NCBI GenBank assembly: GCA_030581615.1
Contig: JAKTTT010000109.1
Location: forward strand, 1 to 32,516
DNA length: 32,516 nucleotides
Reading direction: 5' to 3'
Source of the DNA: Alloascoidea africana
Taxonomy: Eukaryota > Ascomycota > Alloascoideomycetes > Alloascoideales > Alloascoideaceae
The position numbers and the translations under genes are program-made. The notes beneath the pieces were generated by a model. It saw only the letters and a program-made list of their open reading frames with translations. It did not search any database and was not told the origin of the DNA. Of this stretch, positions 14 through 31,225 are shown piece by piece (positions within the stretch are counted from its first letter, which is position 1; each line of letters begins with the position of its first letter).

Positions 14-412
14 TTGCAAGACACCCACCCATTTCCAACCTCCACACCCAGTACCCATAGTCGTACCCTTTCAACAGGCACGGCCTGGTGTGCTGTTGCG
101 AATTTCTACACCTCTATTGATTCTTGTATTTCTACTTTGTCTACAGAGAGACAGTCAGTACTATCACTAGAAGTTAAAGGAATTCTTGCGAGTGGGCTCG
201 CCCGGGCAGACGAGCTTACAATGTTCAACGTGCCCGATTATATGACAGAGATGCTACCAGAGCTTAAAGCTCACGACACAAAGAGGAGGAAAACGCTCAA
301 GGAACCCATACAGCCAGGTGGGTCTTGTCAATCCGACAATCCTCTGGTTGACAGAAAGGTTAAAACAATTTTTGATTCATTGGTCTATAACGACCAACTT
401 ACAGCAAAATAG
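14..412 (+). pseudogene. Gene-family fragment, left arm of inverted duplication
   Basis: Open frame with no ATG near its 5' end; it may be cut by the window edge or be an exon. From about position 251 it encodes MLPELKAHDTKRRKT, then QPGGSCQ and DNPLVDRKV. The same blocks are read on the minus strand at about 830-1037, so this is an inverted paralogous copy. The part before 251 has no counterpart in the other arm. The frame stops at 412, while similarity to the other arm continues at the DNA level to 634. The family is not recognised, and whether this piece is expressed is unclear. It reads best as the 3' part of a duplicated gene rather than an independent gene. Confidence 0.4.
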
Positions 413-1037
413 AAATGCGTTTCTTTGGAGTTTTTACAGATGCAAACTTCCATAGAAAATGCAATTTGTTCGAGTTTTATCTTTTTCCTATCTACAAAAC
501 AAAATATCAATTTGTTAAAAACCCTCAATTTCAATTTTTACTATTCTGGTTTAAAACCTGAAAAATGTCAAGTTACTGGAGTAATTGAAAATTTCGACAA
601 GTTTGTCGTGCATTGCTCAACAGTGTCGAGGCTGCCAAGAGAATAAAGACCAGCCTCGACACTGTTGAGCAGTGCACGACAAACTTGTCGTAATTTTCAA
701 TTACTCCATGAACTTGACATTTTTCGGGTTTCAAACCAGAATAATAAAAATTGAAATTGATGATATTTAACAAATTGATAATATTTTTTGTAGATAATAA
801 AAAAATACAACCAGAACAAACTGCATTTTCTATGGAAGTTTGTAATAGTAAAAACTCCATAGAAACACACCTATACTTTTCAGTTAGTTGTTCCGAGTAT
901 TCCAAAGATTCAAAAAGTGCTCTGACTTTTCTGTCAACCAGAGGATTGTCGGGTTGACAAGACCCACCTGGCTGAAGTTCATACACCCTGAACGTTTTTC
1001 TCCGCTTGGTGTCGTGAGATTTAAGCTCTGGTAGCAT
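251..1037. repeat. Large inverted duplication, ~385-bp arms, 16-nt spacer
   Basis: Left arm 251-634 and right arm 651-1037 are inverted copies around a 16-nt spacer (635-650). By eye the innermost ~60 bp differ at only about four positions, while the outer parts are roughly 80% alike. Both arms contain the tail of one coding family (blocks HDTKRRKT, QPGGSCQ, DNPLVDRKV). A transcript through it would fold into a very long hairpin. Confidence 0.9.
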
Positions 1038-1199
1038 GCTCTTCGCAGCTTCTACGGCACCTGCAGGACAACAAATCGTGAGGTTGACACCAGACCCATA
1101 GGCGCGCTGGTAGGGGGTCTTATAGGTTCCTTGGGGCCTTCCGCAATTGGTGCAAAGACTTCTCATTTGAGATCCCTCACTCAGCTTTGGCGCCCACAA
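573..1199 (-). pseudogene. Cys-rich 3' part of unknown gene family, out of frame with upstream gene
   Basis: This minus-strand open frame overlaps the 3' end of the spliced gene at 1177-1762 in another frame. It encodes CTNCGRP, a CCPAGA segment, then the MLPELK/HDTKRRKT/QPGGSCQ/DNPLVDRKV blocks shared with the left arm. The upstream gene ends with ECCIGCH just before its stop, so two CxxC pairs sit on either side of the frame change. A family member with both pairs in one chain (a possible zinc site) is a reasonable guess, with this copy shifted. The distal part, beyond about 830, looks non-coding and runs into the palindrome centre. No family name can be given. Confidence 0.4.
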
Positions 1200-1762
1200 T
1201 GCGATGGCATCCTATGCAGCATTCGCCATACTTGATGGGAAGCAAAAGTTCTGGGGGGTTGCTTAGAAATGCCAGACCTTTTTCATTCAAACCAGACGCT
1301 GACTTGAATTTGACGGTTGTGGGGTTGCCAAAACATTTGCACATGTGCTTCAATTCCTTCAACAAGAGGGAACTGTTGAACCCTGGGCGAAGGTGATCGG
1401 GATGCAAACCGTTGTACAGTCTGATCACCCCCAGCGGACTCACCGGGACGGCAAAGTTTAGCTCAACTCGCTCTAAGGAACGTAGGTGGAGTAGCATTCC
1501 AGTAGAGCGGGCAAAATTGAGACCATATTTTTTCGAGATTGTTATGTATTGGTATTGGTTGAGCTCGGGGTAGTTGATAACGAGTAAAGAGTGCCACTCC
1601 AGCCTAGCTGGTGTCGGTTCTACTCCTGCAAAGATGCAGTTTCGGAACGTTTTGATCCAGGTCAAGACTTCGGGTTTACTTTTAAAAAAGTTTTAAATAA
1701 TATTGGTTAATAGGAAATATTAGAACTTACGTTTCTTCAGATGTAAGCATTGTTGTAGACAT
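1177..1762 (-). CDS. Uncharacterised spliced gene, two exons, 177 aa
   Basis: Exon 1 is 1731-1762 and exon 2 is 1177-1678. The 52-nt intron has donor GTAAGT, branch-like TATTAAC and acceptor AAAAG. Joining restores one frame from ATG (MSTTMLTSEETKPEVLTWIK) to TGA. A TATATA lies about 39 bp upstream of the ATG. The protein has no signal peptide or membrane segment; its middle (RSLERVELNF, VSPLGVIRLYNGL) has the texture of F-box/LRR-like yeast proteins, but that is only an impression. It ends with ECCIGCH, directly before a second CxxC-containing frame (573-1199). The gene may therefore be a truncated allele of a longer Cys-rich protein. The splice signals and TATA favour a transcribed gene. 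Function unknown. Confidence 0.55.
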
Positions 1763-1800
1763 TGCTGATTGAATGATGACGACAGAGATGGAGTAAGAAC

Positions 1801-1806
1801 TATATA
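1801..1806 (-). promoter_or_regulatory. TATA box of the spliced gene at 1177-1762
   Basis: TATATA about 39 bp upstream of the minus-strand ATG at 1762, a plausible yeast TATA distance for a short 5' leader. No other TATA lies closer. Confidence 0.5.
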
Positions 1807-2007
1807 GGCCACTGTTAGGATTAGGGTTTTACAGAACCTTCATATTATTAACAAAAGAGACTTGTAGATTAATATTAGAAATCTGAACAACCGACTAGCA
1901 AAAGGCTATACTGTTACAATGAGATGGGATATCAAGCCAGTCATTCTCTGAGATCAAGCTGTTACCAACCACCTTAGTTGTTAAACTATATAGCGTCAAA
2001 CAAAATT

Positions 2008-2124
2008 GAATTCCAGACTTGGAAAATTGAGTAGTCGTTGTAAAAGGAAGTAGGATGAGCTTCCTCGCAAAGTGCACCCTACTTCCTTTTACAACGACTA
2101 TTCCATTTTCCAAGTCTGGAATTC
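2008..2124. repeat. Foldback: 47-bp inverted repeat, 23-nt spacer
   Basis: Left arm 2008-2054 and right arm 2078-2124 match at 45 of 47 positions as inverted copies and begin and end with GAATTC. The spacer is 2055-2077. No coding frame explains it, and it is far too long and exact for an ordinary transcription terminator. Confidence 0.93.
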
Positions 2125-5100
2125 GCATCCCGCGCGGTTTTGGTCAAGGCATCCATCTCCCCAAACTTTTCCATGAGATACCGAGACAGAAGATTGATCA
2201 GAGTGCCCCGTAACTCTGAAAAGAGGAATAGGACGCCTAAGTAATCATGTCTTCATCAAAATTATTTCTAACCTGTCACATCGCTCGTAGAAAGGCATCT
2301 AGCACTTGCTGTTTCTGATCTCGGTTCTATTGGATATACATCTGAGGGGTAGAAAAGTTGACATTCTTAGTTTTCAATGTTTTTATCCTGGAAACTCAGA
2401 AAACACCGTCAGGCGGTGGGTAGATTAGTGCAAATAATTGGATGCCACAGGAAAAGGTAAAGCAGTCTGCAAAAATTTGTCAACATGAAGAGGTATGCCT
2501 CGTTATCTCACAGAACAGTCTCTTCTTCAGGAGCAGTAGGAGGCGCATTAACAGTCGCAGTATCTCTATCGTCAGCATTGCTCGATTCGATTGCCATTGT
2601 CATCAATGGCATAGAAGTGATTCTCCATCTGCATCAAAAGAAAGACAATAGTGCTTGTAAACCGGATCATAGGGGTAAAGGAATTGCCAAAGCAGCATTA
2701 GAATCATTATAGTCAATGCGAGCTAGTTCTCAGTCAACTCCAACATAAAAGGTTTTACCATTGATGGCAGCACTATTGGTGTGGTAGCCTCATCATCCTA
2801 AACATGCTGATAAATTGTAACATATCCAAGAGAACACATCCTCCTACAATTTCTATAGCTATAGTGGCGAATGACACGCAAATGTGGCTTAAGAGTCGAC
2901 AGCCAGGAAAGGTTCATTATGAGAAGCAGTTACCCTGGGTTGGGGCTCAGGTTTGTGAGTGGGACATGTTGATCTGAATATTACAACAGAAGTAGCCAAC
3001 TTTGCCTACCCAACTCATTGTTATGACGCCCCATATCACACAGGATACTGCCATAGCGTGCCTCGAAGCAAATCTTCGGCGAAGCTTACCCACAACTTTT
3101 GGGAAGGAGCTGCATCGCAATACCCAGCATCATCAGAGGTGATCACCTAGATTGTATATGAAGCAAAAAGACGCCTACAACTGTTAGCTGAGAAGCATAA
3201 GCAGTGCGGAATACTAGATAATGCTTGGCTCTTTGATGACAAATATTGATATGCTTTAGATAAGCTCCAAGGTGAACAGACTTTGACGCTGTCTCATTGT
3301 CTGAAGTCTGTCACATTTAGCCTCTGTACGAATATGGTAGCTCGACTTCAACGTCGAGGACATTTCAGATAGAGCTAACTCTCTAGCGACTCCCCAAATT
3401 GTGGCTCAGCTATGTAACTTTCGTACCAGTTAGTACCAGCACGATTTTTCTTGCTGGGAACCAAGCAAAAACACTTTCTACTTCTGACTTTATCATTCCA
3501 ACTCGGGCAGCATCGCTATTACAACTAGTATCCTTATGATATCGGATACTGGGCTTTATCGTGCATTTTGGGGGCTGTTTTGTTTGACAAGGCGAGAAGC
3601 CGATTCTGCTGAAGACGTTGATCTACGTGACGCTTTGCTTTTCGGCAGAGTATGCTTCCATCCAGAGCGTGAGATGATGACTTGCCAAATACCGGCTCCT
3701 AGATAATTAGAAGCTAGAGCTCTTGCAATTTCTGCTCAGGGTCCGCTCCCTAAGAGTTCGCCCCTATCTTTCATTGGACATGAAGCTAATCTAGACTAGA
3801 TAGACCCAGAAGAGCCGGGTATATACCAGTATTGATGGGGAGCAGAAATATCTGGCAAAGAAACGGGTTGAATTTGCAACTTGAGGATGCGATAGACAGT
3901 AGACTTCCTAGCTATAAACATTCACAGAAGATATAGGGGCATGGTGCAATTAGGAGGGAAAGGCTTCTTGGAACAACTTATCCACTTGAGCGGCATGAAG
4001 AATGACACTTTTGAAGATTGAGAAATCGTTATGAGTGAAAAGGGTAAGCAGACATTGAAACATTTTAAGCTGTAATACTGTGGATAATTATTCAGGTCAG
4101 CAGTAAGGTCTTTCCCGTAGTAGTGTCTTTCAAGGGAGGTGATGTCTGTTAAATAATTTGCAAGAGTATTGGCTTCGTTTCTAACCCATATCAAGTTCGC
4201 CACCATAAAGTGTCTTTAGGATCATATCTGTGTGTTCAGAAAAGTCACAATTGAGGTTTTGCTACGTTCATCATTCTCAAGGGTGGCAACCAGAGACTAG
4301 GATCCTATCAGCCCTGCAAACGATTCTCAAAGATACACTTGAAAAAGCTTGGTTGTTTTGTATTCTGGAATCTCTCGAAAAGATCCCTGAGCACCCAAAA
4401 AAGGCGAAAACAAAGCCAAGAATAATAAAAGACTATGGATTGATTTTAGCTCTGATTACAAGAAGAGCGGCAAGAGACCGCAGCAGATTTAGCCTCCAGG
4501 ATGACAATCCCAATCAGCTCACCATTAATGTTCAACCTTATGGTAGTTGCTGATTGCTTCCAGAAGGCCTTACGATATATTCAGCACGCACAATTTTTCA
4601 GCGACAAACACTTGAATGAAGAAACGGAAAAAAGATGATGCTAAGAACCCATCCAGAAAAATTCATATGACTATATTCCATCTCGCCAAATGACCTATAA
4701 AGGGCTGATACACAGATGCAAGTGAAGAATAGTAGAATGAATCATTGGTCTCTAGTATATCTGGTTAAAGCCACTAGTAAAACTTCAATTGCTTATAGTA
4801 ACGTAATAGTAAGCAATTGAGACCATAATTGCCAGTTTGTTAGTATTCAATTGTGTAGCAATATGCTCATCTTTCTGTTCCCAATCATCAAAGAGAACAA
4901 GACCTTGATGTTTACACAGTTTGACTGTCTGGTGCTTTATGCTAGGCTATGTACTTTTTCCTCTTGGTCTGATTGCCGTTTGTGATTCTCTAAATTTCAT
5001 ACAGATCCAGCAACTCTGGAACAGACGCAGATAATATCTTTTATTCCATATCATGAAAACAAGCCCCCATTGAAAGCCTTCGTCATCTAATGAAAACGTG

Positions 5101-6230
5101 CTCTCATCAATACTCGATAGTAAGTCCACTCGATCGGTTCGTGTTGAGAAAGGAGGTTGCAAAAAGGTTTCAAAAAACAGCTTGCGGACCTCGAACGCTT
5201 ATTAGAGATTTAGGACACGAGTCTCGTTCATTCTCCTTACCGTGTTGTCAGCAGAACTCGCTATTAACTTTATGGCGCGAGGAGCGTTTTCAACTGACGG
5301 CGCATCTCGCATCAAACTGTGAATGGTAATACCAAGATCGTGGCCAAAGGCTGGTTTGTTTTTAAACATTCTGTTTCTAGCAAAATTGCTCGCCCATAAT
5401 TTATAACACGGTTTGAAGCAAGTCATCACCCGAGATATCAACCGGCAAGCTAAGCGCTGGGTTGGGTAAAGTAGTGGGAATGGAATAAGAGTTCTTCTTC
5501 TCATGCCAAACATATTCTTTCCTGCCACCGCTCCACGAAAACATTAAAGATATGAGTCAAATTGTGATGTCAGAAGAGAGCCAGTTTGTCGCAGGATCAG
5601 ACGAAAAATTTATATCTCACGCCCACCGTCGCATTCAGCCCACCCCTCTTGCTATGATGTTGCAAAATGGGTAACAAGTTTGAAATGAAACTACCAGAGC
5701 AAATAGGGCCACACATACATGAGAACACTGATAAGAGAGAAATTCCAAAAACCGTGTCAAGTTTTATATCCAAAATCAGCTGCATGTCAAAATGCTCCAG
5801 AACATGTCAGATGGATATCATCTCAATTCTAGTCAACACATGGTTGAGAAGCACAACCAAAAAACGAAACAATTAAAAACATTCCAAGAATAGAACAAGA
5901 GCTTGGCTAGGGACTGAAAACGATTAAGAGAAAACCTTTGAAAGGAAGAAATAAGAACTTTTCTCCTTTTATATGCTCTATGCATTGGCTTTCATCTAGA
6001 AGAAACGTTACATGATGGCGAGCTTTCTTCATTCTAGCTTGATCCAACAACATCAGAATTCGTGCACAATAGTCACAGCTATTCACTGAGGCAAGAAACA
6101 GATAAACAAGAAAGAAAATATATAATATAATACAATTTATAATATGATCTAAAATTATCGAATAGAAAGAGCATTGCTACATAAAACTGTGAAGCTAGAA
6201 TTTCAAAGGAAAGGATTTTGGGGATAAGGT
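2125..6230. other. ~4.1-kb gene-free stretch with decayed coding remnants
   Basis: Only short frames (at most 108 codons), none with a recognisable domain or a credible start and leader. Stretches that read protein-like for 20-40 codons and then break in several frames (2485-2830, 3155-3300, 3555-3700, 5202-5528) suggest old pseudogenes. No tRNA, tandem array or transposon ends were seen. The 3' end, 6100-6200, is AT-rich and serves as the downstream region of the wall-protein gene. Confidence 0.5.
2485..2830 (+). pseudogene. Possible acetyltransferase (GNAT) remnant
   Basis: The frame from 2485 ends with PDHRGKGIAKAALESL, which resembles the acetyl-CoA loop of GNAT enzymes (R/Q-x-x-G-x-G/A). 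About 60 bp further on, 2763-2815 reads AALLVW-stop-PHHPKHAD, similar to AAVAVWHPPHPKHED in the intact GNAT gene at 13250-13885, and 14 of 16 bases around CATCCTAAACATG match it. The order of these motifs is not that of one intact GNAT chain, so this may be a scrambled relic or chance. Weak call. Confidence 0.2.
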
Positions 6231-8204
6231 CTAAGCAAAAACATTCACTAGCATCAAAGTCATCAACATGGCTAAAAATTGTGGTATTGTCTTAGCACTA
6301 GTTCCACCCTGAATTATATCTCCGCCAGTGTCATTGGTAGGTTTAGGGTTAGGAGTATTTGACGAACAATCAGAACAACTTCCAATGTCACCCGAAGCTG
6401 AAGATTTTGAGCTAAATGTAGGGCATGAGTGGTCCTTGTTTCCATCGGTCGTTGAAGATCGGCTACTTTGGGTTGTGGGACCACTTGAGTAGGAGTTCGA
6501 GTTAAAACCATTAGAAGAAGAAGGTTTGGACGTAAACTTGGAATGATGGGCACTAGAGCAGGAAGACGATGAATATGTGAAGCTATTTGAATTGGTGGAG
6601 GATATGGATGGCTCCGGAGTTGAACTTGATGCTGATGCAGAAGCAATAGACATAGAGCTTGAACAAGAAGTTGCACTAGAAGAATGTGATTTTGACGACC
6701 CAGAGCTAGACGACATTAGACTTGAACTTGCGAAGCTTCGTGAAATTGAGGAAATTGAGGAACTCAATGAACTTGAAGAGCTTAGAGAACTTGAGGTACT
6801 CAATGAACTTGAAGAGCTTAGTGCACTTGAAGAGCTTAACGAACTTGAGGAACTCAATGAACTTGAGGAACTTTGTGAACTTGAAGATCTCAATGAACTT
6901 GAGGAACTTTGTGAACTTGAAGAGCTCAATGAACTTGAAGAGCTCAATGAACTTGAAGAGCTCAATGAACTTGAGGAACTTTGTGAACTTGAAGAGCTCA
7001 ATGAACTTGAAGAGCTCAATGAACTTGAAGAGCTCAATGAACTTGAGGAACTTTGTGAACTTGAGGAACTTTTTGAACTCAACGAGCTCGAGGAGCTTTG
7101 TGAACTTGAAGAGCTCAATGAACTTGAGGAACTCAACGAGCTCGAGGAACTTTGTGAAGAACTTAGAGAACTTGAAGAGCTTAACGAACTTGAAGAACTC
7201 AACGAGCTCGAGGAACTTGAGCTAGAAGGTGTTACGTAGTGGTAACTAGACAAGTATTGAGTGGTTTCAGCAGTTATTGTGTCAGCATATTCACAATTGT
7301 TGTTTGGGTTCCAGCAGAATACATCAGAATAGTAATAGTCAGTTTGACTTGGTGTACCGGAAGATCCAGGCTTAAACTGGATCGAAATTTGAGCAGCTTT
7401 CCTACAAAAGATATCCATAAAAGAGTCTTTTCGAATTATTTCTCGAGCAAAATCAAACGAATTGGGATTTGAGTCGATCAAGTCAATGCCGTCTGGGCTA
7501 TAGAGGATGATTTCGTTGTCTTCATCAGTGAATCTTATTTCTTGGATACTTTCGATAGCGTTTTGCTGATCTTTTGGTTTAAAATGGTAGACAAGACCAA
7601 TGGTATCTTTGTCCGTGAGCCATTGAAGTTGTGTAGCTTTGAGTTCAGTGTGACATTCGCCGTCACAAACTTGGTTCAGTTTACAATCAGGATTAGGAGG
7701 TACCGGTTCATGTGTGGTTGTTAAACAGGTGTAATCCATAAAAGACATATCGCACTGGGCTGGTATGCAGAATACATCGTGAGAGAAAACAAAGTCCTCG
7801 TCGATATCAGCAATCTTATAGTTTAGTGAAATAGGGTCCACGCATTCACTGCCTTCCACTGTGGTGGAATATTCAAGTACGATGGGAATATCGGCCTCAT
7901 ACTTATTAAGGTCCGATCCAATAACATTCTCACCAGTTGAGCGGTCAAATAACACCTGTTCTCCATTTACCTGAGTCACGGTCCAAATTTTCAAGACACT
8001 TTCGGCCGTAAACTTGCCCTTCAGATTAACGGCAACTGTTGCTTTACGAATTATTTCATACGGATGTATTTCAGTGACTTTGAACAATTCTCGACAGTGC
8101 CCCACGCAATATTGCTTTAGATCACAATCGGTATCATCAGCAAATGCAATCGTGGAAATGCTTAGTAGTAAAAGCAGCGGTAAGGCGAAGTTTTGTTTTC
8201 TCAT
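6231..8204 (-). CDS. Secreted Ser-rich GPI-type cell-wall protein with duplicated Cys domain
   Basis: 657 aa from the ATG at 8204, chosen because it starts a signal peptide (MRKQ, then a Leu-rich core ending near residue 22) and because a TATA lies between it and the upstream in-frame ATG. Residues 26-151 and 173-304 are two diverged copies of one domain. Each begins DCxLxQxCxGxC and ends SxDVFCxPx(2-3)C (SHDVFC, SDVFC). Residues ~325-600 are an S(5)L-type low-complexity stalk, expected to be O-glycosylated. The C-terminus (NDTGGD, then a hydrophobic tail ending MLVNVFA) fits a GPI signal with a G/S cleavage site. By architecture it is a cell-surface protein or adhesin: a head on a Ser stalk. 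The head matches no family I can name. It stands alone between decayed regions. Confidence 0.82.
   Translation of the reverse strand: MRKQNFALPLLLLLSISTIAFADDTDCDLKQYCVGHCRELFKVTEIHPYEIIRKATVAVNLKGKFTAESVLKIWTVTQVNGEQVLFDRSTGENVIGSDLNKYEADIPIVLEYSTTVEGSECVDPISLNYKIADIDEDFVFSHDVFCIPAQCDMSFMDYTCLTTTHEPVPPNPDCKLNQVCDGECHTELKATQLQWLTDKDTIGLVYHFKPKDQQNAIESIQEIRFTDEDNEIILYSPDGIDLIDSNPNSFDFAREIIRKDSFMDIFCRKAAQISIQFKPGSSGTPSQTDYYYSDVFCWNPNNNCEYADTITAETTQYLSSYHYVTPSSSSSSSSLSSSSSLSSSSSLSSSQSSSSSLSSSSSLSSSSSQSSSSSLSSKSSSSSQSSSSSLSSSSSLSSSSSLSSSSSQSSSSSLSSSSSLSSSSSLSSSSSQSSSSSLRSSSSQSSSSSLSSSSSLSSSSALSSSSSLSTSSSLSSSSSLSSSISSISRSFASSSLMSSSSGSSKSHSSSATSCSSSMSIASASASSSTPEPSISSTNSNSFTYSSSSCSSAHHSKFTSKPSSSNGFNSNSYSSGPTTQSSRSSTTDGNKDHSCPTFSSKSSASGDIGSCSDCSSNTPNPKPTNDTGGDIIQGGTSAKTIPQFLAMLMTLMLVNVFA
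6721..7232 (-). repeat. 18-bp tandem minisatellite coding for Ser5-Leu units
   Basis: Imperfect 18-bp units (plus strand GAACTTGAAGAGCTCAAT and variants) repeat across about 500 bp inside the wall-protein gene. On the coding strand each unit gives six residues, mostly Leu-Ser-Ser-Ser-Ser-Ser, with Gln, Lys, Arg, Ala or Thr variants. The copy number probably varies between strains. Confidence 0.9.
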
Positions 8205-9338
8205 ATTGAGCCAGAACTGCCGTCTAATGAGTACCAATGAATGGGTTGAAGAACAAATATATAAAAATCTTTTATGTGACTTTTGGTCCTCGAGCATCTA
8301 AGATTTAACCACTCTAGATTTAAGTGTGCCCAATATAGTTTATTGATTGTTAGCATGTTTATCATGCATTTGCAAGAGAGGTTTTCTTTTCTTCGCTGTA
8401 GCGCACTTTAACACTCATTCTATGGTAATAAGGTTTCTGTTTGAAGCCTGCTGCTTCTCCTTGCTTCGTATAACACCACCATTTTTGATTGGTAATGTTC
8501 GCTATACTGTTAAATTGCTCGTTGATGTTTCCTCTTTATGAACGGTGAAATGAAAACGGAGTAGGAGGAAGTGCTTAGGGTTATCTTGACAAAATGAATG
8601 AAGCTTTGCTTATTTGGGTTTTCACAGACATCCTTTCTTCAAACGAATATACGCTTTGAATTTTGACGGAGCATCCTAGAGGAAAACAATCCCTAGAAGA
8701 CGAACTTTAACTTGAAGTTTACTATACAGCAAAATAGTAGGCTGTAATCCTAATCACGTTTAGACCTGCTAGGTTGTTTGACAGCTTTTGCGATTTCAAG
8801 AGGTTTAGGATCTAGGCCTTTTCCCTGTTGACTTCTCCCAACCTATTACTCTTTCCAGTCTAGTACCTAATCGAACCATAGATATGATCACCATGGCACG
8901 GTACACCCATAAAAGGTAAATTGAAGTGGCCAATGATCGCAACCCTTTATGTTCATGGACTTTTACATTGCGAACAGCATGTAAGATAGGTCTAAATTCT
9001 AACCACGAACAGGCATGGGCTTCCTCGTTTGGGCTATCATAGCAAAAGAATCCTTTCTGGTTCTATTGTTGTTGAAATCGATAACAATTTACGTCATAAG
9101 CGGTTGGCTAACTCGGTAAAACCAAAAGAACAAATCGTTCTTCCGCTAACCTGCATCTAAAAGCTTGCAGAAATCGAAAGAATTGCCACCAACCAACAAC
9201 AGATTTAACAGAACTGAATATTAATGAGAACATGCTACAAAGGCCAAACTCACTAGAAATATTTTTCCTAATAAAGAAGGGATTACGCTATGCCTGAGCT
9301 CTAGAAACACTTATGAGAAGCAGGTTTGAGGAGTAGAG
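8205..9338. other. Intergenic: wall-protein promoter and decayed sequence
   Basis: Holds the 5' region of the wall-protein gene and then about 1 kb without credible frames, RNA genes or repeats, ending at the TA next to the transposon. No other structure was seen. Confidence 0.5.
8258..8263 (-). promoter_or_regulatory. TATA box of the wall-protein gene
   Basis: TATATA in a T-rich context about 55 bp upstream of the minus-strand ATG at 8204. It supports the start at the signal peptide rather than the in-frame ATG at 8297, which would lie upstream of this TATA. Confidence 0.5.
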
Positions 9339-9340
9339 TA

Positions 9341-10413: not shown

Positions 10414-10620
10414 TATGATTTCTTGTTGTCTCTATCTAAGAAATAAATACACTATTTAAGTAATTTTACTTGTGTTAACGATAGATTATTCTTGATGATC
10501 ATTCAAGAAGATAGGGGTTTCTTGAAAGATGCTCTATAAGGTTTAAGAACATAATAATAGGAAATAGGGTAGATTTAGGTGAATAACAGTAAATGGGGTG
10601 CAACCATGTTGGTCACATAT
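10414..10620 (+). repeat. Dispersed repeat, copy A
   Basis: 207 bp that recur in inverted orientation at 31596-31803, about 85% identical by eye, including a long identical block around TGTTAACGATAGATTA and GATGCTCTATAAGGTTTAAG. It starts exactly at the TA flanking the transposon and ends at GGTCACATAT. No coding frame. It could be a MITE or part of a solo LTR; ends and family are undecided. Confidence 0.85.
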
Positions 10621-10661
10621 CAAAGGAGTGATACTTTGACCTATTACGTCTTTATTATGCA

Positions 10662-18135: not shown

Positions 18136-18894
18136 TTTGGATTTGGAGATGGGAAATGTTCAGCCCGGAAAAGCTGGAAACATCGACCAAGGCCGGGTAA
18201 CAGGGCATTGCATTTAGAATAAGATGCCGCTAGGCTATTTCGTTAATGCTGTTTGCCATTTTATACCAGTAGAAAGATTAGTTAAAAGGGTCATCAATAT
18301 TTAACCCAAGACTTTTCCCCTTTTTCGTCGTCTTTGCTCTCATTTCTGTTTGGGCGATCTCATAGCTACTCGTAAACCCATGCGCCTGTATGTCCAAACC
18401 TTTTTCCATTTCAGTAACCGCTTGCATTTCGAGAAGCTGAATGAAGAGTGCTTTAGGAATAGCTCTACGGTTGGGCCATATTTTCGGCCGGTGCCTATAA
18501 TATCTGTGTCTGGATGTATCAGGAAACTCAATGTATGATTGTATCAGCCGGTACAGGGGCGTACATTTAAAAGATAGAAAAATTCAAGCTAAAGGTTCTG
18601 GCAGATGTCATTTTGCAGGCAAATAAAGAAGATAAAAAACCAAAAGGTAAAGCAATTAAAAAGATAGAATAAACAAAAGAAATCAAACGGGTACTAGAAA
18701 TCTCGTTGCGTACTTGCAGTCCTAACTATGGGAAATGGTGTAAATAGTCGGTTGTTCAATACATTCAGCGTTTTATATTCTTTTTTCTTAATAGAGCTAC
18801 CGCCTTTTCCCAAGATCCAACAGGAGCTAGTCAAATGCAAAACAAACGGGCCATTGCAGGAAAAATGAAAAATAAAAAAAATCGTGAAGCTGTA
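18136..18894. other. Intergenic: IML2 promoter and PRY terminator
   Basis: 759 bp between two minus-strand genes. No credible frame, RNA gene or repeat. Several A- and T-rich tracts near 18640-18880 suit the PRY 3' end. Confidence 0.5.
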
Positions 18895-22591: not shown

Positions 22592-23767
22592 ATCTACAGA
22601 GGGGAAAAGGGTGGTATAGGAGATGTCCTTGAGCCGGCAGTAAAACTCTGTGAAAAATAAATGTCGAAAAATGTTTGTTAAACTTTCTTTCAGAGAGGGT
22701 TACCCTGTGCAGTAGATAGTCACGTGTTAGAATGTAAACGAAAACTACCCACCGTGAAACCTAGAAAAGTGGATTATCTACGGTTTAATGGGTCTCTGTT
22801 ATCGAGTCGAGATCCAAATGGACTAGGTATGGATTGCGTGTGAATCTGTTGCAAAATGTAGAATACATACAAACCTCCGTTTGATGATGAGAACGCTCCG
22901 AGCGTGACGTTGTGACTCGGTCTTCTTCTGCATCAGCTTTTTACAATTTGGGGAGACGGGAAGTTACCGGTTTTCAAACAGATTAAAAGGCGGGATGGTT
23001 CTAAATTATTTAAATATTCAGGGCATGGCCACAAGTCACTATCTGGGAATCCAGAATACAAGTCTAGGCTTGCCATGAATTCTCGTTTCTCAGAAATCAT
23101 TAAATCAAAGGTAATGATCCCTGCACAAATCGACGACTTTTTGCCAAATACTTGGAAATGAGTTGAGATAGCGAGCACACGCTATAAACCAGAGCCAGTT
23201 GTGTCAAGTTTAGATTGAAGCGCTCTGAATCTTTGAAGTTAAGAAAAGTCTGCGAAATCAGAAAGGTCCAACCCTGTTATATAGATGCGAACTTCTCGAA
23301 ACTGCTCGTATAACTCAACTTCTCTAGTAGAACAAACTGGTGTTCAAGTGTGAGAAAAGTCAGCTCTCGAAAACATGGAGATCAAGAGTTTTGTCTTTGA
23401 ATTGCAATAGGTGATGTGGGGAATCATTGTTTTTACACCCTCTCAGTTCGTAGTGTTCAAACAAGGAGATCGTATTTACTCTCTGCTTAAAACAGAGCTC
23501 AATAGACACTTTGTTAATTCCAAGTGATTAACCGATCTTTAGCCCCAGGTATTGGATTATTGGAGCCTTAACACTCGTAGTATTTATCAGAAAGTAGAAT
23601 TTTAACATGAATTACCAATTGTTATGTAAATTGGGCCATTAGCGTTGGTCGCTGATTGGTGGACTTTGTAACTCTGTGTATGGAAAGAAACATACGAAGT
23701 TGAGCTTATTTGGTTTTGGCATGCTGCACAGAAGCCTGTGTGTCTTTCCACTTGCTCAACTTTGACA
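22592..23767. other. Divergent promoter region HMT1 / LSB1-type gene
   Basis: 1.18 kb between diverging genes. A CACGTG is at 22721-22726, about 130 bp before HMT1. The rest has no credible frame; an 81-codon minus-strand frame at 22933-23178 shows no family trait. No repeats seen. Confidence 0.5.
22721..22726. promoter_or_regulatory. CACGTG E-box upstream of HMT1
   Basis: GTCACGTGTT contains the core bound by Cbf1/Pho4-type bHLH factors in yeasts. The position fits HMT1 control; actual use is inferred only. Confidence 0.3.
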
Positions 23768-24621
23768 ATGCCACAGGAAGAAGCGCTCATCAACAGGTCT
23801 CTTACCAGTATCCACACAGTGAGTTTTGGGAAAATAAATAAGTTTAATGAGAGGACATCTATTTGCTGACCTATCTGGTTCAAAAGGAAATTGAATTTCT
23901 CAAAGACTTGGGAATCCTTTCACCAGAGTTGTGTAAACAGCTCGAATCGAAAATACCTCGACGATATGAAAAGGGACTTGAGAATATACGTGCTTTTGAC
24001 GTTGTAAATAATGATACCGACCCAGATACAAATTGTTGTATGAGTTATTCAAAGGATTCTGCGATTCCCAGACCGGATGAGCCACCTGAGTATTCTGAAA
24101 TCGGGGAGAAAAGGTTGAACATGGCGAACACACAGCACTCACAATCTGAGGGGAAAAGAATGGTCAAAGCAGTATTTTCTTTCCAAGCGCAGGCCAAAGA
24201 GGATATTTCTCTGCAAGAGGGAGATGTAATACATGTATACTCAACACCAAACGAGCACTGGTGGGAAGGTTACAACTCCAGAACTGCACAAACGGGGTTG
24301 TTCCCTTCCAACTATGTTTGCCCCATCACAAGTACAAAGACTCAAGATGTGTATGGTAGGTCTCCTCCACCAGTTCCGAGCTCAGTTGGTGCACCTAGCT
24401 GGAACAACAATATGAATAGTTATGGACCAGCGCCAGCGCCAGCGCCAATGCCAATGCCAGTGCCAATGCCATCACCGTACCAAAGTGCTCCAACAAGTGG
24501 TGGTTCTCAACATGGAAGGTCGCATCCACATCTAAAGGCGCTTGGGACTCGATTTGGCGAGGCAGCTGTATTTGGAGCCGGGGCCACTCTTGGCAGCGAC
24601 ATTATAAATTCCATTTTTTGA
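23768..24621 (+). CDS. LSB1: SH3-domain protein of the Lsb1/Pin3 family, two exons
   Basis: Exon 1 is 23768-23818 and exon 2 is 23887-24621. The 68-nt intron has GTGAGT, branch CTGAC and acceptor AAAAG, all in phase 0. The joined 261-aa protein starts MPQEEALINRSLTSIHTEIE, collinear with Pin3 (ALINRSLTNIRTELDFL). A PPEY at about 83-86 is a PY motif for the Rsp5 ubiquitin ligase. The SH3 domain is at ~110-163 (VKAVFSFQAQAKEDISLQEG, WWEGYN, GLFPSNYV), followed by a Pro/Ala/Met tract and the conserved tail (HPHLKALGTRFGEAAVFGAG...DIINSIF). In yeast these proteins bind Las17/WASP, dampen actin assembly and affect prion induction. The exon-2 frame is open upstream but lacks an ATG, so exon 1 is needed. 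Confidence 0.92.
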
Positions 24622-24772
24622 TAAGAATGCTATATTTCATATTATTATTCAAATTATGTAAATGCTCAAGGGAAAGGGAAAATATGTAAAACATCATATG
24701 TAGAAGCAAATCTATCGACATAACAACAAAAAGAACTAAAATGTGTAGACATACAACAAAAAAGTAAACTGA

Positions 24773-25942
24773 TTAAACCTGTTTCCCAGGTAAAGTATCG
24801 AGTTCGGATGAGGATATTTCGTTTGTTGGTTTACTACCGCGGGCAAAGCGGGCAAAGCGGCTGTGTTGGGGGCTCGTATTTTCTTTCTCTTTCTTGTCGG
24901 TGGATTTGTCACGAACTGGAATGTGTTGTCGTCCAAAAACGAATCCCGGGTGGTAAACGGTTAGTACCACAACGCATATGCCCATCATGAGGGCATCAAG
25001 GATGAAGAAATAGATTTCATGGACAATCAAATGGCCTGTAAAACCCTGGCTGAGCTCAGCGGCTCTGTATATGGATCTGATATAGACGCAAAGAATGGAG
25101 ACCAAAAGAACCGGGACAAAATGTTTGAACCAAAACGTGCTTCTGATGTTGGCGTATCCGGAGTCGAAAACGTCATCTGTTTTGCCGTTTTTGGAGTAAA
25201 CCCTGTTGATACGGAACAAGAATTCAGCGACAAGAACTAGAAACAGGGTTATGGAAACGACTTGGAAAACAACACCGGAGACCATAATGTTTGTACCTGT
25301 ATTTGTGTCGTCGTTGGATCTCATGGCGACTGCGGCCATTCCACCGCCAATCGCCTGCAAGACTATTGAAATGGCATCGCAAACGACAAATATTTTGGAA
25401 TAACTCAGGGGAGCCAGACGTGAGTATTGGCGGCCATAGACAACAGCGAGTTTTGCAAGCAGGTAGTAAATGCCTGCTGCGAGGAAAGCTGGAGCCAGGG
25501 TCAGAGCAATGATTTGGAGTAAAAAATAGTTTTGGTTCAAGGTGTCATTTGCGGCCAAAGTGCGACCGATATAGCCTGCAAGTTCCAGGACTGTGCCAAT
25601 CCAAAAAGCGGTTCCGAACCACCACTGGCGATACCAGAACATGAGGAAAGTTTGGAGGAGCCATGCGATTCCCATGATTATGGCCATGGCGAGGTTCCCG
25701 CCGAAGCTTGGGGTCATGCCGTAAATGGAGTCGACAAAGTTGGGGTGTTTTATGTATAGAGCAAGCAAGTCGTCGAAGGCTTCGGCAGCGGTGGATAGAG
25801 CCGCAGGGTAGTCATTAGAGTTTGTGACTGTGGCGGTGGCACTGGAGAGCAAGGAGAGGTAGACGGAGGTCGGATTGACGGTAGAGGGCAGAGCCGAGAT
25901 GCTTGGTATCGGGGGTATGCTCAGCTGGGTTGATAGAGACAT
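24773..25942 (-). CDS. RTA1/RSB1-family seven-helix membrane protein, copy 1
   Basis: 389 aa from MSLSTQLSIPP; the frame stays open further upstream but through a 12-bp repeat tract that looks non-coding. An N-terminal lumenal region of about 90 residues is followed by seven hydrophobic segments. Family motifs: GNLAMAIIMGIAWL, WWFGTAFWIGTVLELAGYIGR, LLQIIALTLAPAFLAAGIYY, YSKIFVVCDAISIVLQAIGG, YIRSIYRAAELSQGF, HEIYFFILDALMM. The charged cytosolic tail starts DKSTDKKEKEN. Rsb1 in yeast exports or controls sphingoid long-chain bases at the plasma membrane; Rta1 gives 7-aminocholesterol resistance. Tandem with a paralog, 810 bp apart, same strand. Convergent with the SH3 gene. Confidence 0.92.
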   Translation of the reverse strand: MSLSTQLSIPPIPSISALPSTVNPTSVYLSLLSSATATVTNSNDYPAALSTAAEAFDDLLALYIKHPNFVDSIYGMTPSFGGNLAMAIIMGIAWLLQTFLMFWYRQWWFGTAFWIGTVLELAGYIGRTLAANDTLNQNYFLLQIIALTLAPAFLAAGIYYLLAKLAVVYGRQYSRLAPLSYSKIFVVCDAISIVLQAIGGGMAAVAMRSNDDTNTGTNIMVSGVVFQVVSITLFLVLVAEFLFRINRVYSKNGKTDDVFDSGYANIRSTFWFKHFVPVLLVSILCVYIRSIYRAAELSQGFTGHLIVHEIYFFILDALMMGICVVVLTVYHPGFVFGRQHIPVRDKSTDKKEKENTSPQHSRFARFARGSKPTNEISSSELDTLPGKQV

Positions 25943-26752
25943 GATGGGATTGGTTTGAGTTTGGGTGATTATTTTTCTGGTGGGGGATGGTGAAGTAGAT
26001 ATAGAAGGAGGGAGAAGGAGGATGGGCCACCGCCAGGCATACCGCCAGGCATACCGCCAGGCACACCGCCAAGAGCCGCTCAGCAGAACACAACACACGG
26101 CACAGTAAAGCAGGGACTAAAGAGAACCAAAAATCAGCCAGATTGGAGTCATATTGGGAGCCTTGCGTGGCGTGACAGACAGAGAGACGGAGAGAAGGTA
26201 CAGGGTTCGAACAATTGGCAATTACAAAATACCAAGGGTTTAAGGGACTATTACGTGGCGGTTCAGTATAATTGGTTTGGTGGCAAGAATAGCCCTATAT
26301 CTATATTTATGGGGGTATACAGATTTTGATAAAGTGATCACAGTACAGACAGGGCTGTGAAATAATACAAAGTGGCCAAGTTAAGGCTTGTAGATCTGGG
26401 TATTTAAGCCCACGTTTGGGTTGGCTGACCAAAAAATGCGTGTTTGTGATTTTCTTCTAGAAGGAAGGATATGGGAACTACTATGGGACTTTATGGATTT
26501 CAGCAAACGCTGTTCGCAGTTTCTTTTCAAGTAAATACAGAAAAACATAAAGTAGCGGGTTAACCAAATGCTTGTCTATAACACAAAAGAAAAAAAAAAA
26601 AGAGAAAAGAGAAAGGTATATTAAAGAACCACGTAAAGCATTCTTGGAGAAGCATCACGTGGAGGATTGAAATAAAGAGTAAAATTAGAAAGATCTTGGG
26701 CATTTAAGCTTAATCCCAAAACAGGCAAAGAAAGTTTGATGGACGGACTAGA
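25943..26752. other. Intergenic between the two RTA1-family genes
   Basis: 810 bp: promoter of copy 1 and terminator of copy 2. Contains the 12-bp tandem repeat at 26029-26072 and a CACGTG at 26656-26661. No frame with coding character beyond the 5' extension of copy 1. Confidence 0.5.
26029..26072. repeat. 12-bp tandem repeat (ACCGCCAGGCAT) x ~3.7
   Basis: Three full units at 26029, 26041 and 26053 plus a partial fourth, about 90 bp upstream of the copy 1 RTA1 ATG. The 12-bp period keeps the upstream frame open, so on paper it adds a WRYA repeat to the protein. More likely leader or promoter. Confidence 0.85.
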
Positions 26753-27913
26753 TCACTTTTTCGCAAAGTCGTCGATGGAGTAAACGTCCGGTTGGATGGT
26801 TGGGGGATGGGATTGAGATTGAGATTGAGAATGGAGGGCGATTTCCGAAGTTTCGAGCGATTGGGCTCTGTCTCTGGCAGTGGCTGCGGCCTTCTCGTGG
26901 GCTTTCCGGGTAGCGCGCTTGGTGATGGGGATGTGGTAGCGCTTGAACACAAAGCCCGGGTGGACGACGGTGAGCAGGAAGATGGCGAGGGAGACCATGA
27001 GGGCGTCGAGGAAGAAGAAGTAGTTTTCGTGGAGGATCAGATGGCCTCTCCAGCCCTCGGCCAGCTCGACGATTCTGTACAGAGATCTGATGAAGATGAA
27101 GACCGTGGCGGCGAGGATCACGACGGGGAAGTATTTGAAGGCCGTGGAGCGGCGGATGTGGGCGTATTCGGGCACGAAGCCGGCGTCGGAGCGGCCGTTC
27201 CGGCGGTAGCACGAGTGGACCGAGTACAGAAAGTCGGACAGCAGCACCAGGAAGAGCGAGATACAGGCGACCTGGAACGCGATGCCCGCGACCATGATGT
27301 CGGTGCCGCGCTTCTGGCCGGACGGCGAGTCCGCGCCGGACGCCACGCCGCCGCCGAGGCCCTGGACGGCGATGGACACGAGGTCGCACGCGATGAAGAC
27401 CTTGGAGTAGGTCAGCGGCTTCCAGCGGCCGAGCTCGGGCCCGTAGACCACGGCCAGCTTCGCGAGCAGGTAGTAGAGCCCGGCGGTCAGAAACGCCGGC
27501 GCCAGGGTCAGCGACACGATCTGTAGCAGAAACAGGTTGTCGTCCGAGTAGTCGTCGTGGCTGAGCGTCCGGCCGACGCCGCCGGCCAGCTCCAGCACGC
27601 ACCCGCAAAAGAAACACGCGCCGAACCACCACTGTCGGAACCACAGTCCCAGCCCGACCTGGCCCAGCAGCAGCAGCCCCATCACGACAGCGAACGCCAG
27701 GTTGCCGCCCAGCGCGGGAATGATCCCGTACGCGCTGCGGTCCACCAGAATCTGCGTGTACGCGGCCTCGGCGGCGGCGGACGCGCTGGCGACGGCCTGC
27801 GGCGACGAGCCGGACACGGTGCCCGTGGCCGTCGCCAGCAGAATCGAGTGCAGTGCCGCCGTGTCGGACAGCGACAGCACGGACGTCGGAAGCGTAGCAG
27901 TATCAATTGACAT
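26753..27913 (-). CDS. RTA1/RSB1-family seven-helix membrane protein, copy 2 (GC-rich)
   Basis: 386 aa from MSIDTATLPTS; a minus-strand TATAAA lies about 70 bp upstream. Same order of motifs as copy 1: GNLAFAVVMGLLLL, WWFGACFFCGCVLELAGGVGR, LLQIVSLTLAPAFLTAGLYY, YSKVFIACDLVSIAVQGLGGG, FIRSLYRIVELAEGW, HENYFFFLDALM, VHPGFVFKRYHIPI. The tail is basic, then Ser/Gln-rich. The two copies are clearly paralogs, but copy 2 is far richer in GC (row 27301-27360 has 50 G or C of 60; row 25321-25380 in copy 1 has 34), concentrated at third positions. Divergent from REG1. Likely plasma-membrane lipid-handling protein; substrate unknown. Confidence 0.92.
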   Translation of the reverse strand: MSIDTATLPTSVLSLSDTAALHSILLATATGTVSGSSPQAVASASAAAEAAYTQILVDRSAYGIIPALGGNLAFAVVMGLLLLGQVGLGLWFRQWWFGACFFCGCVLELAGGVGRTLSHDDYSDDNLFLLQIVSLTLAPAFLTAGLYYLLAKLAVVYGPELGRWKPLTYSKVFIACDLVSIAVQGLGGGVASGADSPSGQKRGTDIMVAGIAFQVACISLFLVLLSDFLYSVHSCYRRNGRSDAGFVPEYAHIRRSTAFKYFPVVILAATVFIFIRSLYRIVELAEGWRGHLILHENYFFFLDALMVSLAIFLLTVVHPGFVFKRYHIPITKRATRKAHEKAAATARDRAQSLETSEIALHSQSQSQSHPPTIQPDVYSIDDFAKK

Positions 27914-28256
27914 GGTATAGCTATAATGTGGGTGTGTTCTCTCCAGACTTCCCTCGCGACCCCACAGGCAGCCCGGCCGGTCTTTATACCTCCCCGTCTC
28001 AGCCCTCTCAGCCCGCTCGAGCTGGGTGCAGTTTCCTGGCTCTGCTCGATCACTATATCGCCCACTCGCACTTTTCGGCGACTGCAGCGGCAGCAGCAGC
28101 GGCAGCCCTTCGTAGACGGTGGTCACGTGCGGACACCCGGACACCCGCGGGTGCTTCGCCACTTGCCAGCTGCTCTGGTGCCAGTTCTCCTAACCTCCGT
28201 GTCTCGCCGCTCTGCTTCCCGTTCCTCGTTCAGAGCCTCGCCCAGAGCCATCCTCC
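27914..28256. promoter_or_regulatory. Divergent promoter between RTA1 copy 2 and REG1
   Basis: 343 bp. TATAAA (minus) at 27983-27988 serves the RTA1 gene. A CAG/CGG-type triplet tract sits at 28083-28106. CACGTG at 28124-28129 is directly followed by CGGACACC at 28130-28137, again at 28138-28145, then CGCGGGTG. The cluster resembles bHLH plus Rap1- or zinc-cluster-like sites. No TATA was seen for REG1. Confidence 0.45.
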
Positions 28257-31001
28257 ATGGCCGCCACAGACAAGCCCTGCCCGGTCTCATCTTCCCCGGT
28301 TGTACCCGTCCCAGCTCCAGCTCCAGCTCCTGTTTCAGCTTCAGACTCAGCCCCAACCACTGCCTCGCTCGCCAGTTTCACCCCCACCTCTCCTGCCTTT
28401 GCCATCCACAAGGACTCGGACTACTCTGCCTTCCCGACCCAGTCCAGAGCCGTCGAGGCCGAGAATGACTCGCTCTTCCACTCCTCCTCCTTCGCTCTGA
28501 AGCGTACCCGCTCCATGGGCGTCCTCGACCACTACATTGTCCAGAGAAACCAGCAGAATCAGCTCCCAGATCCAACTCCAACTCCAACTCCACAACCACA
28601 ACCACAACATGCCCATGCAATGGCAATGGAAGGATCAATCCCTTCCTTGCCATCCATCCTCCTCCAGGAATCCCCAGACTCTTCATCTTCACCATCTTCT
28701 CCTTCTCCTTCTCATCCCTCCCAAACCGCCAACCAGAACCAAATCCACCCTCTCTTAAAATCTCGCAAAAACAAACCCCACCACCACTTGGATCGCTCCC
28801 ATCCTGATCAGTCACCATCCCCTGCTCCAATCCCTCATTCCCTCACAACCTACGACGATTCCGCAATCTCCAAAAACGAACCCTCCCGCCACGTCGACTA
28901 CCTCACCCACAACTGGAACGAACCGGACATCTCCTCCTCCTGGAGATACATCATCCGCGAAAAAAAAAAGGGCTCCCACGATGACGACGACTATCTACCA
29001 AACGTAGAACGTCTCGAAAGCGCCTCCTGGAGACTCTGGGTAAAGACAAAATATAGCCTCAAATCCGCTAGCCCCAGCTATGCCCAATGGCTCAAAAACA
29101 AAGACCCAATCTCCCCCTGGCTATACGGGCCCTTTTGTCGCCAACCTGACATACATTCCTTGCTGGATCTGGACGAACACCGCTCGGCATCTTCCTCTTC
29201 CACTTCCCTTCATCGTCATCATCAACCGGAATCTTCCACCACCACTACTACTACCTCCAACTACTGTCCCCCAAAACCCATCCTGAAAAAACCAACCGCC
29301 TCCGAAAGGCTAAAATCCTCCGCCGCCGCTCAACAACCACTCGACCATCCCATTCCCCTCAACAATGCCCTAGCCTCCTCAACTACCCTTTATTCCCGAC
29401 AACACAAGTATCGACAATCCCTAAAGCCAAAACGTCCCTTTGATTTCACCTCTCCAACCTCCCGCGATACACATTCCTCCTCCCCAAATCTCAACGCCTC
29501 TTCCTCTTCCTCCTCATACCCTGCTGCATCCCCCATCGACTCCTCCCATAAATCCCCTCTCCTTTCGTCCTCAGCCTCCTCTTCATCTTCCTCATCTTCT
29601 TCTTCCGCTCCTTCCAAAAAATCAGGAAGACACATCCATTTTAACGACCGTGTAGAACAGTGCATAGCAATCGACATATCCTCTTCCAATGATTATATAC
29701 CTGATGATTCCCAAGAAGACTCCGATTCTGGTGATGATGATTATGACGACGATGATGAAGATGAAGATGGTTTTTTTCTAAAAGTTCACAAACCTTCTTC
29801 CGGCGTGCTCCACAACTATGGCACAACGGTTGTACCATTGGACCCAAACTCAAACCCTCAACCCACAACATTATCTTCCTCAAAGTCTTACACAACGATA
29901 GCAATGCTCCCTGCCACTACTCTAAACTACTGTGACAACGAAGATGATTACTCCTACGATGAAGACGAATATTATACCCTGAACAGCAGCTCCAACAGCA
30001 ATAATAATAACCGTAGCTCAACCTCAAACAACAGTTACTCAATGCTGAATGCGATGAGCCACAATACAAACACTTTTCGGGGTTACGACTACCGCTACGA
30101 CTACAATTCCGTTTACCCGACTCCATCAACCCCCGCCGACCAGTATGCCTACTCCTACAGCTACAGCACTTACTACGACAGTCAGGATCCCCAAACCTCT
30201 TTACAGGACGAATCCGATCCAAGTCTGGAAATCGTAGACTTCCCAATGGGTGAATTCACCAGCGTCGTTTCCGGCCCCGAAATTTCCGACTCCACAGCTC
30301 CAACACCAACAACCCCGAAACAAAAGCCGTTGGTCCCTCAAAAAGACCAAGAAGAACCCGCGACTTCTGCTGCCACTCCATCCACTGTCTCCGCATCAGT
30401 CTCGAGCAAAAGCACAACCTCTTCCTCAACAAGCTTTGGCTATCTCTTTCACGATTCGGACAGTTCCACCGACAGTAATGATGAAAGTGATCGGGAAATG
30501 ACAGATTCGAATTTCAACCCGAAAAAGGCTCCAGAACTTTCAATAGACTTGAAAACCGCTGTTCCAAGCAAAGTTGCATCTGTTGAAAACTCTTTACGCG
30601 TCGGCCCTTCCGGTCCGTCACCGGCGGCTCCTTTCAAAACCACCAAAAAAAATGCACCGGGCCAGATGAGGGGGGCTTTTCAGTTTGGAGATTCGGATTC
30701 CGAATCGGACTCGGACGCCGAATCGGCTGCATCTTTGGATTCCGATGACGAAATGGAGGATGCTGTAAAGCAAATCCCTGGTTCCAGAAGAGATAGCAAT
30801 GCGGTTGAGGAATTACAAAAGCTCATGATCCAACAACGAACATCCTCGGGGGAATTGGGAAAGGCATCCACTGCCAGTTCAGCAGGATCTGTGGATGATG
30901 AAAGTTCAAGCACAACCACAAATTCAGGAGGCGCCATAAGCAACGCAATGAGTTTTGCAAGAGGACTGATATCTGGAAATTGGCGAGATATGGAGAGCTA
31001 A
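28257..31001 (+). CDS. REG1: Reg1/Reg2-type regulatory subunit of protein phosphatase 1
   Basis: 914 aa. Directs Glc7 (PP1) in glucose repression, opposing Snf1, in S. cerevisiae. The DUF1752 block starts at about 211: HVDYLTHNWNEPDISSSWRY, then RLESASWRLWVK and WLYGPF, collinear with Reg1 (HNWDEADILSSW, RLENASWRTW, WLYGP). RHIHFNDRVEQCIAID (about 458) is the PP1-docking RVxF-type motif (R-H-I-H-F), as in Reg1. The rest is low complexity: Pro/Ala and Pro/Thr tracts, a Ser run near 440-450, an acidic stretch (DDYDDDDEDEDG) and Asn/Tyr-rich parts. The coding strand is very poor in G up to about 29,700. Start at the ATG after the divergent promoter; no intron is needed. Confidence 0.9.
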   Translation: MAATDKPCPVSSSPVVPVPAPAPAPVSASDSAPTTASLASFTPTSPAFAIHKDSDYSAFPTQSRAVEAENDSLFHSSSFALKRTRSMGVLDHYIVQRNQQNQLPDPTPTPTPQPQPQHAHAMAMEGSIPSLPSILLQESPDSSSSPSSPSPSHPSQTANQNQIHPLLKSRKNKPHHHLDRSHPDQSPSPAPIPHSLTTYDDSAISKNEPSRHVDYLTHNWNEPDISSSWRYIIREKKKGSHDDDDYLPNVERLESASWRLWVKTKYSLKSASPSYAQWLKNKDPISPWLYGPFCRQPDIHSLLDLDEHRSASSSSTSLHRHHQPESSTTTTTTSNYCPPKPILKKPTASERLKSSAAAQQPLDHPIPLNNALASSTTLYSRQHKYRQSLKPKRPFDFTSPTSRDTHSSSPNLNASSSSSSYPAASPIDSSHKSPLLSSSASSSSSSSSSSAPSKKSGRHIHFNDRVEQCIAIDISSSNDYIPDDSQEDSDSGDDDYDDDDEDEDGFFLKVHKPSSGVLHNYGTTVVPLDPNSNPQPTTLSSSKSYTTIAMLPATTLNYCDNEDDYSYDEDEYYTLNSSSNSNNNNRSSTSNNSYSMLNAMSHNTNTFRGYDYRYDYNSVYPTPSTPADQYAYSYSYSTYYDSQDPQTSLQDESDPSLEIVDFPMGEFTSVVSGPEISDSTAPTPTTPKQKPLVPQKDQEEPATSAATPSTVSASVSSKSTTSSSTSFGYLFHDSDSSTDSNDESDREMTDSNFNPKKAPELSIDLKTAVPSKVASVENSLRVGPSGPSPAAPFKTTKKNAPGQMRGAFQFGDSDSESDSDAESAASLDSDDEMEDAVKQIPGSRRDSNAVEELQKLMIQQRTSSGELGKASTASSAGSVDDESSSTTTNSGGAISNAMSFARGLISGNWRDMES

Positions 31002-31067
31002 CCTACTCCAATCCCGATACCTTTGCGGAAAAAACTGCTTTTTTTTTTTTTCTCTTTTTTTTTTTTT

Positions 31068-31225
31068 TGATCTTTTCGCTTTATGTCGTATCATATCGTA
31101 ATCGCATAACACATAGTAATAGTAATAGAAGTATCATGTCAATTGTCATATACATACTTCTATTACTATTACTATGTGTTATGCGATTACGATACGATAT
31201 GATACGATATAGAGCGAAGAGATCT
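31068..31225. repeat. Foldback ~65-bp arms, 19-nt spacer, behind REG1
   Basis: 31094-31134 and 31154-31194 are a perfect 41-bp inverted repeat around a 19-nt spacer (31135-31153). The arms go on outward to about 31068 and 31225 with a 5-bp insertion (CGATA) in the right arm and a few mismatches, then merge into a T-tract on the left and an A-tract on the right. It starts about 67 bp after the REG1 stop, probably within its 3' UTR. Confidence 0.95.

Follow-up and report, generated by a model that had tools for sequence, protein, structure and literature searches.

Diverged foldbacks in a contig of Alloascoidea africana as probable products of local inverted duplication

We analyzed three foldbacks, i.e., pairs of inverted arms separated by a short spacer, in contig C109 (JAKTTT010000109.1) of the ascomycete Alloascoidea africana. 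The window, that is, the whole stretch of DNA analyzed, is this entire contig of 32,516 bases, in a genome of 23.18 Mb in 138 contigs. The three foldbacks (FB1, FB2 and FB3) are real, and chance is excluded as their source. Each of them probably goes back to its own local inverted duplication, which arose by a template switch or a foldback and has since decayed. In such an event, a growing or broken DNA end would switch to the opposite strand or fold back near its stopping point, copy the neighbouring DNA in reverse and be rejoined, and the copies would then decay by ordinary mutation; the agent would presumably be a polymerase or a break end. The spacer would vary between events because it is the distance between the two switch points. 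The geometry of local inverted copying is seen directly in contig C50, where both arms of a foldback correspond to one segment of contig C5. For foldbacks that lack an undivided relative, including the three in the window, we infer the same origin by analogy, because no such relative was found in the genome.

Foldbacks in the window and in a genome sample

The features of the three foldbacks, as delimited by gapped alignment, and the two open reading frames (ORFs) that overlap FB1 are the following.

247-634, plus strand: left arm of FB1, holding the final codons and the 3' flank of a short ORF
635-650: spacer of FB1, 16 nt
651-1042, minus strand: right arm of FB1, inverted relative to the left arm
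14-412, plus strand: ORF of 132 amino acids ending within the left arm of FB1; no Pfam match at E 0.001
573-1199, minus strand: ORF of 208 amino acids crossing the right arm of FB1, alignable with the 132-amino-acid ORF over 53 codons; no Pfam match
2008-2057, plus strand: left arm of FB2, 47 of 50 bases identical to 2075-2124 reversed
2058-2074: spacer of FB2, 17 nt (7 to 23 nt under other arm-end rules)
2075-2124, minus strand: right arm of FB2
31055-31134, plus strand: left arm of FB3, starting in a poly-T tract
31135-31153: spacer of FB3, 19 nt
31154-31238, minus strand: right arm of FB3, with an A-rich tract at its end

The arms of FB1 are identical at 330 of 385 aligned bases, with 55 mismatches and 10 gap columns. 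The duplicated content consists of the last ~50 codons of the small ORF and ~220 bases past its stop codon; the view of the preliminary description that the trio includes both coding and non-coding DNA holds. Over the 53 aligned codons, the synonymous divergence (dS) is 0.48 and the nonsynonymous divergence (dN) is 0.18 (dN/dS about 0.37). The duplication looks old because of this dS value, and coding constraint seems, from the codon comparison, to have acted on at least one FB1 copy. The 208-amino-acid protein, searched against the genome, matched only itself and the other FB1 arm. The adjoining ORF 1177-1665 (minus strand) resembles, weakly and below the cutoff (E 0.062), the transposase-like RNase H C-terminal domain PF21789.

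FB2 has three mismatches and no gap, and its spacer hangs on the rule for the arm end: 17 nt by gapped alignment, 23 nt in the preliminary description and 7 nt by the repeat finder. It is flanked by dispersed repeat pieces at 1933-1993 (found in 5 other places) and 2227-2400 (found in C130 and C127). The arms of FB3 are identical at 75 of 80 bases, with a single 5-nt gap (5 gap columns). FB3 starts 53 nt past the stop codon of ORF 28257-31001, which encodes a GATA_AreA domain (PF08550), and a dispersed repeat resembling a long terminal repeat (LTR) begins ~350 bp to the right of its end. A snap-back complementary DNA origin, considered for FB3 on account of the poly-T start and the A-rich end, is unlikely; no parent sequence appeared in the genome search. 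The arm differences of FB1 and FB2 are mainly substitutions, as in old duplications. Self-correcting hairpins, which would leave an identity gradient from centre to edge, were rejected: among 14 foldbacks, the inner half of the arms was more alike in 5, less alike in 7 and equal in 2, and the pooled differences were 135 of 1,284 inner versus 120 of 1,284 outer positions (P 0.36).

Foldbacks were collected as ungapped inverted repeats with a score of at least 19 and a spacer of at most 1,000, followed by gapped extension. The sample consisted of the window, 20 pieces of 10 kb each from contig interiors and 40 of 1.5 kb each from contig ends, i.e., 61 pieces and 292.5 kb, or ~1.3% of the genome. 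We found 15 foldbacks in this sample, the three in the window counted, compared to none at the same score in 16 shuffles of all 61 pieces, so that the expected excess over shuffled sequence was indeed observed. In 40 dinucleotide shuffles of 232.5 kb, a single inverted repeat reached a score of 16 or more (16.0), versus 158, 44 and 42.5 for FB1, FB2 and FB3. The arms of the sampled foldbacks range from ~30 to 450 bases, one arm being longer than the piece fetched. With 3 foldbacks in 32.5 kb, the window does not stand out against all other pieces (12 in 260 kb, P 0.23), and the idea of an exceptional density was rejected; the comparison with interior pieces alone (4 in 200 kb) gives P 0.06.

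Used as genome queries, FB1, FB2 and FB3 each matched only themselves, and they therefore have no sequence in common that the genome search detects, as had been claimed. It should be noted that this search skips very common words and scores the best candidates alone; "single-copy" means no other match at E 0.001, and in this sense the expectation that the arms are single-copy was borne out across the 23.18 Mb. Because no other copy of any of them was found, the three foldbacks do not constitute one transposon family.

The spacers are a different matter. The preliminary description gave 16, 23 and 19 nt and regarded a length near 20 nt as a common trait. The values for FB1 and FB3 stand, and that for FB2 becomes 17 nt by gapped alignment. 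Outside the window, the gapped spacers are 284 nt (L010), 167 (L016), 94 and 69 (L024), 73 (L037), 130 (L042), 52 (L048), 30, 21 and 12 (L056), and 50 and 316 (L058), the last belonging to a weak foldback whose ungapped and gapped solutions are different pairs. A common spacer near 20 nt does not hold, because these 12 spacers span 12-316 nt (median 71), with 1 of 12 within 16-23 nt; the distribution is thus broad, in a small sample of 12 foldbacks. A log-normal fit to the outside spacers would predict a looser trio (P about 0.0008), in a comparison where the trio was chosen post hoc and the FB2 value is rule-dependent. Among short perfect inverted repeats, with arms of 11 bp, loops of 15-24 nt are not enriched (1 observed versus 0.83 expected); there were 3 versus 1.17 expected at 25-39 nt and 4 versus 2.13 expected at 40-69 nt, the long foldbacks having been taken out of the observed count only. 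A handful of equal loop lengths within a single window can be deceptive.

Undivided relatives of foldbacks outside the window

The evidence on origin comes from foldbacks that have a relative elsewhere in which the same DNA is undivided. The clearest case is the second of two foldbacks in L024, the sampled piece of C50. Positions 2751-3468 of this piece run along the minus strand of C5 from 110269 to 109527, with 656 identities, 61 mismatches and 27 gap columns. The directly following positions, 3469-3812, run along the plus strand of C5 from 109458 to 109804, with 323 identities, 21 mismatches and 3 gap columns. Because the alignment to C5 turns at the very next base (3468/3469), the 69-nt spacer of this foldback runs on into its right arm without a break. 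A single segment of C5 thus matches both arms, the spacer being what lies between the two switch points. The fetched C5 piece of 1,041 bp has one frame, of 346 codons, that stays open over its full length, and therefore the C5 order is probably the undisturbed arrangement; a Pfam search of the 346-amino-acid frame gave no match.

The two foldbacks of C50 lie side by side in repeat-like DNA (L024 1736-3812), each with an undivided relative elsewhere. Both arms of the first map to a single segment of C107 (5564-6091), with 36 of the 94 spacer bases, beside the left arm, outside the alignment; in C40, C43 and C54, too, parts of both arms map to common stretches. Judging from the look of its peptide, this foldback may be Ty1/copia; a 127-amino-acid piece gave no Pfam match. 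For one L056 foldback, parts of both arms map to a single segment, C39:3527-3712, and for L042 they map to one segment at C102 and to one at C14. In total, 4 of the 11 foldbacks searched in the genome (the three in the window, L016, L037, two in L024, three in L056, and L042; those of L010, L048 and the two of L058 were outside this set) have relatives with parts of both arms on one segment, and 7 of 11 have none. The proposal of the preliminary description that local DNA was copied in inverted form, rather than being one transposon family, is supported by these foldbacks outside the window; within the window, the mechanism follows from them by analogy.

Several observations weigh against an origin by local inverted copying. 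The genome search gave no undivided relative for FB1-FB3, L016, L037 or the remaining two foldbacks of L056. By eye, no microhomology is clear today at the C50/C5 join, whose copies differ by 6-9% in substitutions. Past the right arm of the C50 foldback (3812), nothing matches the fetched 1,041 bp of C5, so that no return to the template is seen there; such a pattern would be expected if a broken end had folded back, been extended and then been joined at another site, but a return may lie farther off. Some foldbacks sit in repeats, so that a pair of independent insertions could look like an inverted duplication; C56 contains part of the L042 query in two opposite orientations (479-692 plus, 750-847 minus).

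With respect to location, 8 of the 12 foldbacks outside the window fall within the 60 kb of contig ends, out of 260 kb (P 0.0016); by piece, the ratio is 5 of 8 (P 0.019). Foldbacks were present in 5 of 40 end pieces versus 3 of 20 interior pieces, the latter being longer, and G+C content is slightly lower in end pieces (0.41 versus 0.44 in the interior). FB1, FB2 and FB3 each lie at most ~2.1 kb from an end of their contig. Copies of the LTR-like repeat occur at most 3 kb from the start of C50, C91, C102, C106, C120 and C133. Foldbacks may favour repeat-rich regions, where assemblies also tend to break.

Three foldbacks, with spacers of 30, 12 and 21 nt, lie within ~720 bp at the right end of C52 (L056 356-1076), and the other end of the same contig (L037) also carries one. 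At the start of C87, a palindrome identical at 349 of 351 positions (L042 669-1500) runs past the end of the fetched piece and represents either a recent event or an assembly artefact. The LTR-like repeat of the window, at 31592-31883 (plus) and 10414-10620 (minus), is a dispersed repeat of ~290 bp with TG...CA ends (by eye) that resembles a solo LTR, with 55 matching pieces genome-wide, the query counted. The genes of the window have a fungal appearance; domain matches comprise two RTA1-like proteins, GATA_AreA, Iml2, an arginine methyltransferase and a pyrophosphatase; the two RTA1-like membrane protein ORFs are adjacent (24773-26098 and 26753-28162, both minus).

Alternative origins

Inverted arms are also a mark of non-autonomous transposons of the foldback or miniature inverted-repeat type, spread by a transposase. 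The position of FB2 amid dispersed repeat pieces and the LTR-like repeat close to FB3 speak for such elements. However, none of the three foldbacks has a second copy in the genome, a target-site duplication is not visible by eye at their outer ends, and the relatives of the sampled foldbacks are single segments, with one partial exception at C56, so that we consider this origin highly improbable. Even less credit is due to assembly or library artefacts, i.e., chimeric palindromic reads at contig ends, although all three foldbacks are close to an end of an entire contig and the sampled contig ends carry foldbacks at a higher density. Copies of one molecule should be near identical, whereas the aligned arm bases of the trio differ by 6-14%; FB3 carries its 5-nt gap, the coding codons of FB1 differ with dN/dS about 0.37, and contig interiors carry foldbacks as well (the 4 in 200 kb). 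A palindromic-read artefact is thus unlikely for the trio, because of the arm differences and the coding signature of FB1. L042, nearly identical and at a contig end, is the sampled case most open to this explanation.

If, instead, the foldbacks were hairpin RNA genes under selection (small-RNA precursors, or in the case of FB3 perhaps a 3' end signal), inverted duplication would have supplied only the raw material. Very stable predicted folds (-80.3 kcal/mol and z -15.27 for 2000-2130, spanning FB2; -77.8 kcal/mol and z -15.25 for 31080-31215, in FB3) agree with this possibility, but strong folding is expected of any inverted duplication. The genome has a single Piwi-domain match (C28:100635-101600, in an open frame of 1,068 amino acids) that is probably an Argonaute; FB3 starts shortly after a stop codon, and short inverted repeats of Saccharomyces cerevisiae are enriched near poly(A) sites (PMC6420913). 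The inner half of the arms is also more alike than the outer half in all three foldbacks of the window. Conversely, G-U-type mismatches favour no consistent strand (9 plus versus 14 minus in FB1, 1 versus 1 in FB2, 3 versus 0 in FB3), and an Rfam search of the window gave no match; selection on hairpin RNAs appears quite unlikely. In a more elaborate scenario, local inverted duplication would occur at an unusually high rate in repeat-rich regions and an Argonaute would derive small RNAs from some of the hairpins; a copying error would in this way keep seeding new silencing loci. This scenario is very unlikely, and its "unusually high" rate is a guess. FB1 alone might be a tail-to-tail pair of paralogous genes, in which case the trio would mix unlike things. 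The open frames in both arms, with upstream parts that differ, and a dN below dS in the shared codons are compatible with such a pair. However, the homology runs ~220 bp beyond the left stop codon, up to the 16-nt spacer, which separately placed genes need not show, and an inverted duplication catching a gene end accounts for the open frames and the extended homology alike; we regard the paralogue pair as unlikely. A local inverted duplication by template switch or foldback thus remains our preferred explanation for each foldback.

Comparison with known systems

We regard the foldbacks as naturally occurring, for the most part diverged, cases of an already known mutation class. The preliminary description suggested an undescribed feature of the genome, but inverted duplication by template switching or foldback priming has already been published (PMC13334657, PMC11724301, PMC10622511, PMC7954356, PMC8794818). 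Among the open-licence papers listed, as judged by titles and abstract openings, none describes such foldbacks throughout a fungal genome. Inverted repeats have been surveyed in 118,019 genomes with perfect arms and spacers of at most 8 bp (PMC13155455); by these settings, the survey would not list these foldbacks as such.

Foldback insertions at yeast breaks (PMC11724301) likewise place local DNA inverted beside itself; synthesis makes one of the ends, and joining captures the second. They are mostly about 5-34 bp and use microhomology, whereas the arms described here measure ~30 to 450 bp or more, and at the one mapped join, C50/C5, no microhomology is clear today. Template-switch mutations, known from apes and RNA genes and captured in a four-point model (PMC7954356, PMC8794818), share the strand jump and reverse copying that yield inverted repeats and new hairpins. 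This model includes a return to the template, and none is seen at C50 within the 1,041 bp of C5. Switching between existing inverted repeats occurs in genes of S. cerevisiae (PMC8604942). A point of similarity in the break-induced inverted duplication chromosomes of yeast (PMC10622511) is foldback priming at short inverted repeats whose spacers are 6 and 35 bp; unlike the foldbacks here, these rearrangements are chromosome-scale and proceed via hairpin-capped and dicentric chromosomes.

The small inverted triplications of rad27-deleted yeast (PMC13334657), with a median inverted fragment of 160 bp and a median spacer of 30 bp, share the size range of our foldbacks. They carry a further direct copy, in contrast to 14 of the 15 foldbacks here, including the three in the window, for which none was present within 3 kb or up to the end of the piece. 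Fresh events, in yeast mutants or in cancer, are the subject of much of the cited work. With a genome that preserves old events, some of them with an undivided relative, the switch distance and the copied length could be read from natural events.

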